Origin: Chloroflexi bacterium GWB2_49_20
Lineage (GTDB): Bacteria; Chloroflexota; Anaerolineae; Anaerolineales; Villigracilaceae
Direction: 5' to 3'
Assembly (NCBI GenBank): GCA_001796335.1
Contig: MGMF01000001.1
Span: 1-64,000, forward strand
Length of the DNA stretch: 64,000 bases
Made by a program: the position numbers and the translations under genes
The notes under the pieces: generated by a model
The model's input: the letters and a program-made list of their open reading frames with translations, nothing else
Database searches by the model: none
Told to the model about the DNA's origin: nothing
Part shown: piece after piece, positions 10,045 to 54,113 of the stretch
How the letters are laid out: the number at the start of each line of letters is the position of its first letter
Numbering within the stretch: position 1 is the stretch's first letter

Positions 10045-10075
10045 AATGCGTATTTTCTCATTAAGGAAGGGTAAG

Positions 10076-10116
10076 GCGGGGTGCTTACGGGCAATTTCAC
10101 TGCCCACACGCCCCGC
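10076..10116 (-). repeat. GC-rich nested hairpin between mreC and mreD
   Basis: GCGGGG (10076-10081) pairs with CCCCGC (10111-10116), and inside it GGGCA (10089-10093) pairs with TGCCC (10101-10105). There is no T-run, so it is more likely an mRNA stability or translation control element than a terminator. Confidence 0.5.
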
Positions 10117-10149
10117 TCCCCTGGTTTATTAAGATCATACCATAATACG

Positions 10150-19749: not shown

Positions 19750-20190
19750 GGCTTATTTATTTTTAGAAGTCACGCAGTGGAAAAGATTCGGGGGTGTGAT
19801 GGGCGGGTTTCACGGGCCCGAAACATCCCCAATTTCACAGAAGTCCATAAGTTATATTATTTTAACACTTCATGTGAACTTAAGTATTTTTTAATCAAAA
19901 CATGGTCACTTCAATGAATGGTTTGGGTGCAGCATTGAATAACAAAAATGGTAATGGCTTAATCAAGTATCTGAAATCTGAACATCAAGGCTCGTCAAAC
20001 CTTGGGCAGGAGATCAACCCAAAATTGCAATAAGAAAAGCGGTACAGTGAGTATGAAATCGCGTTTTGTACATCTTTTCCAGCAGGCTTGGGTGAAAGTG
20101 GAGAATGGTTTATGAAGTAAAACACTGGTTTTGTGGCATCAGTAAATACCTGCAAATTGTCATCCCTTCCAGCTTATATACATCGGACAG

Positions 20191-25164: not shown

Positions 25165-25254
25165 GTATCTTTTCAATAATACGGGGAAAGGGAGGATGTG
25201 ATTGCGCGTTTTGCTCTCTATCACACCCTCCCACCCCACTTTTATGAGATGTTC
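25165..25254 (-). repeat. Interspersed 90-bp hairpin element, copy D
   Basis: Fourth member of the family also found at 38612, 44917 and 54025. Read on the minus strand it has CATCTCATAAAAGTGGGG at the left, a stem GGGAGGGTGTGAT / ATCACATCCTCCC, then TTTCCCC and an AAAAGATAC end. The flanks match the other copies; the stem sequence differs but stays paired. It lies upstream of hypF. The remainder of 25255-25448 has only the promoter region and ribosome binding site of the next gene. Confidence 0.65.
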
Positions 25255-25448
25255 CTTATTAAATAATTCTTGAAATAGTATTATACTTGCGCAAATAAAA
25301 AATGATTGTAGTAACCTTACAGAGTACTGTGTAAATATCTAAACCATATTCCTGTCATTTGTGAGAAATTCGATAAATACAAGTTCAGAAAGAAATGCAA
25401 GAAGCAGCATGAATCTGTTTGTATATCAACTTTCAGGAGGTATGCAAT

Positions 25449-32638: not shown

Positions 32639-32694
32639 CATTTCCTCCAAAACATATTAAGAAACTGTCCTAAAAATCGGGATGGTGTGGACGT

Positions 32695-32719
32695 GTTGGT
32701 GTCGCTCTGCGACGCCAAC
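32695..32719 (-). terminator. Hairpin downstream of wecB
   Basis: GTTGGTGTCGC (32695-32705) pairs with GCGACGCCAAC (32709-32719) with one G-T pair and a 3-nt loop. An outer GGGATG/CATCCC pair adjoins. No strong T-run on the minus strand. It probably ends the wecC-wecB transcript; its flanks vaguely resemble the 90-bp element family but not convincingly. Confidence 0.5.
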
Positions 32720-32795
32720 ATCCCTACTCACTTTCACCCTGTACTTTTCGGATAGATATTAATTCAAAAATATTATAACCGCATAATATTCTGCT

Positions 32796-38581: not shown

Positions 38582-38611
38582 GCAAGTCTTTCATCCATAT
38601 TTGTGATAATT

Positions 38612-38700
38612 GTATCTTCTTGAAAATCTGGGGGTGGGGTGTTTTTGGCTGGCTCCGTCAGCCAAAAACACCCCACTTCCCCTCTTAATAAAGAGGATAC
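38612..38700 (+). repeat. Interspersed 89-bp hairpin element, copy A
   Basis: Begins GTATCTTCTT and ends AAGAGGATAC, near-perfect terminal inverted repeats. Inside are AAAATCTGGGGGTGGGG, a long stem GTTTTTGGCTG / CAGCCAAAAAC, and a second small stem CCTCTT/AAGAGG. Three other copies are at 44917 (inverted), 54025 and 25165 (inverted). It lies between rnd and the beta-CASP gene and may also terminate rnd. Confidence 0.75.
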
Positions 38701-38726
38701 TGATTATTCGTGGTAAGGAGAAGATT

Positions 38727-44916: not shown

Positions 44917-45006
44917 GTATATCTCAATGAAGAGGGGGGAAGATGGGTGTTTTTGTCTGGCTCAACCAGATAAAAACACCCTACACCCCAGATTTTTGAG
45001 AAGGTA
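44917..45006 (-). repeat. Interspersed 90-bp hairpin element, copy B
   Basis: Read on the minus strand: TACCTTCTCAAAAATCTGGG, stem GGGTGTTTTTATCTGG paired with CCAGACAAAAACACCC, then CTTCCCCCC and an ATTGAGATATAC end. Same architecture as copies A, C and D. It lies between the SanA-like and HD genes. Confidence 0.75.
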
Positions 45007-45014
45007 ATTTAATA

Positions 45015-54024: not shown

Positions 54025-54113
54025 GTATCTTTTCAAAAATCTGGGGGTGGGTGTTTTGGGCTGGGTTAGCCAGCCCAAAACACTCCGCTTTCCCATCTTT
54101 ATTGAGATGCTTC
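54025..54113 (+). repeat. Interspersed 89-bp hairpin element, copy C
   Basis: Starts GTATCTTTTCAAAAATCTGG, has central stem TGTTTTGGGCTGG / CCAGCCCAAAACA and a second stem CATCT/AGATG. Same architecture as copy A. Its right end overlaps the asp23 stop codon, so the element lies between asp23 and fakA inside their operon. Confidence 0.75.

Follow-up and report, generated by a model that had tools for sequence, protein, structure and literature searches.

A family of short hairpin repeats in an Anaerolineae genome very probably consists of MITEs with IS66-type ends

What kind of element is the 89-bp hairpin at positions 38612..38700 (+) of the window, the 64-kb stretch of DNA analysed here, and why do its stems covary with those of its relatives? 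The element is located between two plus-strand genes, was matched by a covariance model at E=1.6e-19, and contains a perfect central hairpin of 18 bp with its 5' arm at 38634..38651 and its 3' arm at 38659..38676 (both +). It is bordered by tgataatt on the left (38604..38611) and tgattatt on the right (38701..38708), which agree at 7/8 positions as left and right target duplications. A sequence-only reading had listed four such copies, suggested a MITE- or REP-like mobile family, and taken the compensatory changes in the stems for selection on structure. Our main reading, to which we give a probability of roughly 0.9, is that these are non-autonomous MITEs with IS66-type (ISBst12-group-like) ends, presumably moved in trans by an IS66-type transposase.

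The four listed copies were all confirmed in place and align over about 90 bp, with two ends refined. In addition to the copy described above, they comprise 54025..54113 (+, 89 bp; E=3.8e-16), 44917..45007 (-, 91 bp; E=1.8e-16) and 25165..25255 (-, 91 bp; E=7.4e-6), the last of another hairpin type and with divergent ORFs on either side. The list was incomplete, since a fifth copy of 91 bp at 10050..10140 (-; E=6.3e-7) had been overlooked. The flanking 8-mers match at 8/8 positions around the 44917 copy (atattaaa), at 7/8 around the 38612, 25165 and 10050 copies (cataatgc/cataatac at the last), and at only 5/8 around the 54025 copy. A weak, possibly degenerate copy at 32662..32758 (+), which we regard as uncertain, reached E=0.009 in a 129-kb search and was absent from the genome-wide model list, for which 150 of 682 candidates were scored. 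A weak look-alike near 19792-19836 scored 60% to the reference.

In the 3.37-Mb genome, a blastn search with one copy matched 12 distinct places, one of them the query itself; the lowest-ranking of these (E=0.17) is probably a chance match. The covariance model, built from eight similar copies, gave 89 matches at E<=1, equal to 60 distinct places with both strands counted once, and 48 distinct places at E<=0.01, all counts resting on the 150 scored candidates. Further copies therefore exist, as a whole-genome model search had been proposed to show, and the outcome named in advance as pointing to ordinary terminators, no more copies and no covariation, did not occur. Four of the 48 hairpin places (C3:291, C13:13275, C25:41657 and C22:3988) carry other ends and are probably not the same transposon. 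A GGGGTGT..ACACCCC core with quite different ends, TTGGGAATCTCCGTG-like or ATTCGGGGGTG-like, was seen at C3:291-375, C13:13275-13365, C25:41657-41743, C22:3988-4076 and about 19770-19850 of the window, as if one hairpin module were common to several transposon families.

Terminal inverted repeats are imperfect and read GTATC(A/T)TCTCAAtAA..GGGG; with at most one mismatch, the end motif GTATCWTCTCAA occurs 129 times in the genome of the window, compared with 18 occurrences of the reversed control, and the longer motif GTATCWTCTCAATAA occurs 58 times, compared with none for its control. When element ends were set by the model and the flanks were not looked at, 27 of the 48 model hits had flanking 8-mers that agreed at 6/8 or more positions (11 of them at 8/8), versus 17 of 2256 cross-pairings, and no clear duplication was present in 21 hits. 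Pairing of end motifs gave matches of at least 6/8 for 30 of 66 pairs against about 1% of cross-pairings, a count that is weaker because the duplication itself helped to select between overlapping candidates. Target-site duplications, suggested earlier as a check, were thus found and are 8 bp long; they imply insertion, which argues against reading the hairpins as terminators or RNA structures. Elements with clear duplications range from 41 to 113 bp, mostly near 50 or 90 bp; among the 30 end pairs with duplications of at least 6/8, ten measure 41-52 bp and 14 measure 87-92 bp. The 41-52-bp elements are without the hairpin and look like hairpin-deleted derivatives. Such forms lie at C1:133265, C5:157869, C14:15344, C16:30542, C17:49339 and elsewhere, several with duplications of 7/8 or 8/8.

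The same ends were found on larger elements in related genomes. The contigs of two relatives break at MITE-type ends, beside sequence that reads as the ends of transposase genes. Searches with these pieces led to a complete insertion sequence, L226/L238, which is 1730 bp long with ends GTATCTTATCAAAAA/GTATCATCTCAAAAA, an 8/8 target duplication GTTTATTC and one gene, which encodes a transposase of 548 aa from its ATG; L226 lies in a genome of the window's family, and L238, with the same element and duplication, in a record titled Anaerolineae. A transposase scan of named genomes yielded 25 loci, and inspection of 19 for ends identified seven complete copies with duplications (six 8/8, one 7/8). 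The six besides L226/L238, from other hosts, measure 1753-2005 bp, and a single ORF fills most of each complete element of 1730-2005 bp. According to their record titles, the hosts of the seven are Anaerolineae, Phycisphaerales, Anaerolineaceae, Nostoc, Patescibacteria, Methanophagales and Calothrix. L239 carries GTATCATCTCAATAA at both ends. Convincing ends with duplications were not found in 12 of the 19 relatives, in some of them because the contig stops early, but four Calothrix copies on long records also belong to this group. At L225 both ends are present and the duplication is absent (1/8). Five IS66-type copies occur in Calothrix parasitica NIES-267 (L250, L252, L253, L254 and L262, one of them on a plasmid), with clear GTATC ends and an 8/8 duplication in one of the five. 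In genomes G003, G058 and G049, contigs break at insertion-sequence ends with a fixed overlap; these genomes therefore probably contain several copies of the autonomous element that the bins lack.

When six insertion-sequence ends were compared with five hand-picked MITE ends, 15-20 of 22 positions agreed. Most MITE copies contain a central G/C-rich palindrome, which is unlike the insertion sequence beyond its ends. All four transposases tested matched PF03050 (DDE_Tnp_IS66) above the cut-off, a 122-aa transposase fragment fell below the Pfam cut-off, and three of three fell below that of the NCBIfam IS66 equivalog model NF033517 (97-129 versus 180 bits). Residues D228, D355/D356 and E469 of P0001 are invariant in a four-sequence alignment, in columns compatible with a DDE triad, and from the alignment are putatively catalytic. 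The closest described system is the ISBst12 group of IS66, for which the available part of the source gives GTAACTnCTCA-kind ends, an 8-letter direct repeat and a single transposase ORF, as in the autonomous relatives; its member ISDge4 from Deinococcus geothermalis, likewise with a direct repeat of 8 letters and one ORF, has terminal inverted repeats GTGACTACTCAGCA/GTAACTGCTCAGCA (PMC12898284). The PF03050 domain of that group is also present in the autonomous relatives, whereas the MITEs themselves are gene-less. The relatives differ in their scores below the NCBIfam IS66 cut-off, in a transposase of about 550 aa compared with the 449 aa given for ISDge4 in the accessible text (PMC12898284), and in a stretch inside the catalytic region that is present in three of the four transposases and missing from the fourth.

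The repeats are short, gene-less and present in several copies, with a fixed 8-bp duplication and terminal inverted repeats common with an autonomous element. The MITE part of the earlier suggestion was therefore right, supported as it is by the terminal repeats, by the target duplications and by an autonomous element with matching ends in relatives. Mechanistically, an IS66-type transposase would bind the MITE ends in trans and move the element. A comparable case is MITEPsy1 of Pseudomonas syringae, described in the part of the source available as a 100-bp element that has the terminal repeats of an insertion sequence and a target duplication and whose movement is believed to occur in trans; it is tied to ISPsy2, makes 4-bp duplications and has six copies with identical ends (PMC3189936). 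Unlike in MITEPsy1, the copies studied here have their ends in common and differ in the central palindrome. No report on this MITE family was found among open papers, nor, within the parts of such papers that were available, any paper that ties a MITE to IS66; as far as searches of open papers go, the IS66-type MITE family is new.

A transposase with matching ends had also been named as a check, and the search succeeded in relatives but not in the window's own genome. Full-length P0001 had no match there, in a search run without a positive control, and a C-terminal transposase query found none at E<=1e-10 in this genome, while it was detected in 9 of 152 family genomes. The sole PF03050 gene of the genome, on C28, was rejected as a partner: no end within 3 mismatches appeared in the 2.7 kb examined, although the contig starts 360 bp away. 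A second candidate, C13:1085-1963, has two ends 879 bp apart and was rejected as an autonomous element on reading its translations, as its ORFs are not transposase-like. The missing partner would fit elements that are moved by another transposase and share their end sequence with IS66-type elements by chance. We consider this very improbable, since the repeats match IS66-type elements from the same bacterial class in end sequence, in the T/A asymmetry of the ends and in duplicating 8 bp.

The end is widespread in that class. With at most one mismatch allowed, 34 of 61 genomes of the family contain the motif, against a total of 6 matches for the control, and the exact end was found in 69 of 396 genomes of class Anaerolineae, with 1 control match among the matches listed; the exact two-ended pattern had matches in only 4 of 10 genomes rich in single ends. 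In the 4.1-Mb genome G279 the 15-base end motif is present without mismatch at 427 places, and an exact two-ended element of about 50-110 bp was not found there. In genome G189, five 101-bp elements (L272, L275, L277, L279 and L281) agree in their ends and, apparently, throughout their interiors. One of their ends reads GGGGTAAA, as in the insertion sequence L239, and the elements are possibly recent internal-deletion MITEs.

The other half of the earlier suggestion, REP-like elements moved by a RAYT, accounts for short, palindromic, mostly intergenic repeats in many copies, and GTAG repeats of this kind have been reported from Chloroflexi (PMC3733652, in the part available). As characterised in that part of the source, however, GTAG REPs are 20-40 bp long with a GTAG tag at one end, and their enzyme is a tyrosine transposase (PMC3733652). 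The elements here have another size, a GTATC consensus on both sides (one copy begins GTAGC) and 8-bp duplications, and the same ends are carried by an IS66-type DDE transposase element. The REP alternative does not fit these features and is scarcely credible.

The hairpin itself poses a separate problem. In an alignment of eight copies, 9 of 36 pairs had changed on both sides, seven of the nine in the main stem, and in 500 shuffles the observed covariation was reached by none on four of five measures and by five on the fifth, with slid controls lower as well. The claim that the main stem covaries was thereby upheld. The second small stem (CCTCTT/AAGAGG versus CATCT/AGATG) did not prove general: judged by eye, it is missing from most rows of a 24-copy alignment, from which RNAalifold returned no consensus pair, the register being lost. 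Strong stems with such double-sided changes are what would be expected if the hairpins acted at gene ends as intrinsic terminators, or were RNA structures under selection, and the covariation reflected selection on the transcript; in many copies, read in one orientation, the stem is also followed by a run of T. The genomic setting, derived from crude ORF calls for 59 elements, speaks against terminators. There were 34 elements in tandem intervals, 12 in divergent and 3 in convergent ones, 5 inside an ORF call and 5 without assignment, so that the description 'intergenic near gene ends' holds in part. Of the tandem-interval elements with known orientation, 13 run with the genes and 16 against; with no orientation bias in these calls, the terminator reading was rejected. 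Furthermore, four tRNAs account for all Rfam matches in the window.

Stem decay was measured on 22 elements picked by their ends and a duplication of at least 5/8, not by pairing. Mismatches affected 30 of 264 stem pairs and 27 of 176 duplication positions (p=0.14), a comparison in which the cut-off lowers the duplication rate somewhat; the near equality of mean decay argues against RNA selection. On the other hand, 11 of the 22 stems are perfect, compared with 5.2 expected (p=0.006), which the RNA or terminator reading would accommodate, and stems are perfect despite eroded duplications in 8 of 15 elements, compared with 2.0 expected (p=0.0003). Mean decay like that of the duplications, yet with an excess of perfect stems, indicates that some stems are reset or protected and others are not. 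One-sided mismatches on the reference strand comprised 5 G.T and 8 A.C in 36 of 46 elements, the 10 weak-stem elements being left out; the G.T excess expected from RNA selection is lacking, with too few cases to be decisive. Type-B stems showed 22 double-sided changes versus 1 one-sided, a count that we do not lean on: it drew on 36 elements kept for good pairing (10 of 46 dropped), and six of the 22 came from one probably misregistered element. Two end-chosen elements outside the type-B set, C14:69578 and C1:25165, have many one-sided changes. A comparison of stems with the mismatch rate of the terminal inverted repeats suffers from the same bias and is set aside. Selection on a transcript is improbable. 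The conclusion that compensatory change signals selection for structure lacks support, as stems decay about like the duplications, lack a G.T excess and show loop inversions, and covariation does not discriminate a selected RNA from arm copying at the DNA level.

Loops were found in both inverted forms in the same orientation, GAA/TTC and TTT/AAA in this genome and GCA/TGC and GTA/TAC in G517, with coincidence odds of about 0.0008 and 0.011 for random triplets, composition and shared descent ignored. These inversions point to copying between arms. DNA synthesis through the hairpin would use one arm as the template for the other (template switching), so that the arms change together. Alternatively, well-formed palindromes may be the source copies, kept perfect while mobile, with many copies decaying after insertion; this would explain much of the same data. 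Most likely the arms change together by one of these two routes, and template switching, or perfection while mobile, fits better than RNA selection. The specific proposal that palindromes are rewritten arm-to-arm by template switching also after insertion, so that double-sided changes, transversions among them, and loop inversions accumulate without any RNA function, is tentative and stands at somewhat less than even odds. According to the available parts of the literature, template switching between inverted repeats is recognised by homogenised arms and inverted spacers (PMC8604942), and the process is able to preserve hairpins and to produce compensatory changes that span several bases (PMC8794818). 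The perfect stems and multibase compensatory changes of such hairpins resemble the MITE palindromes (PMC8794818), with the difference that the cases in the accessible text are from RNA genes and yeast coding DNA (PMC8794818, PMC8604942), and those here from a transposon family.

The hairpin, as distinct from the ends, might instead be selected at the DNA level, as a binding site, a cruciform or an intrastrand triplex (GGGG-linker-GGGG..CCCC) that helps transposition. By eye, several hairpin types and distant genomes share a GGGGAAG..CACCCC frame, and the hairpin core is also present with other ends. GNA loops have extra stability. The form GNA or TNC is taken by 15 of 17 apex triloops in G517 and by 8 of 17 here, compared with 12.5% if random, although loops in the window's own genome are not generally of this kind. 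The stems that stayed perfect beside eroded duplications would also agree with a DNA-level role. The ten hairpin-less elements of 41-52 bp with duplications, by contrast, imply that the hairpin is dispensable or was lost later, and we hold such a role to be doubtful. The arrangement of G run, linker and G/C hairpin is shared with the TM-ECO intrastrand triplex motifs, of which the pattern published in the portion available, CCCTCNCCC..GGGNGAGGG..GGGNGAGGG, is another sequence (PMC4666352).

Reading the repeats as MITEs moved by an IS66-type transposase identifies the mobile element that underlies a repeat found across many genomes of the Anaerolineae, and links this element to a class of transposases whose movement has been little studied. 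If arm copying is true, DNA palindromes by themselves can generate covariation, which is often regarded as the strongest sign of a functional RNA. The family would then offer a natural, class-wide data set of strong covariation without RNA selection. Its insertions, which are independent and number in the hundreds, can each be dated by the 8-bp duplication at the site, and from them the speed of arm copying could be measured.
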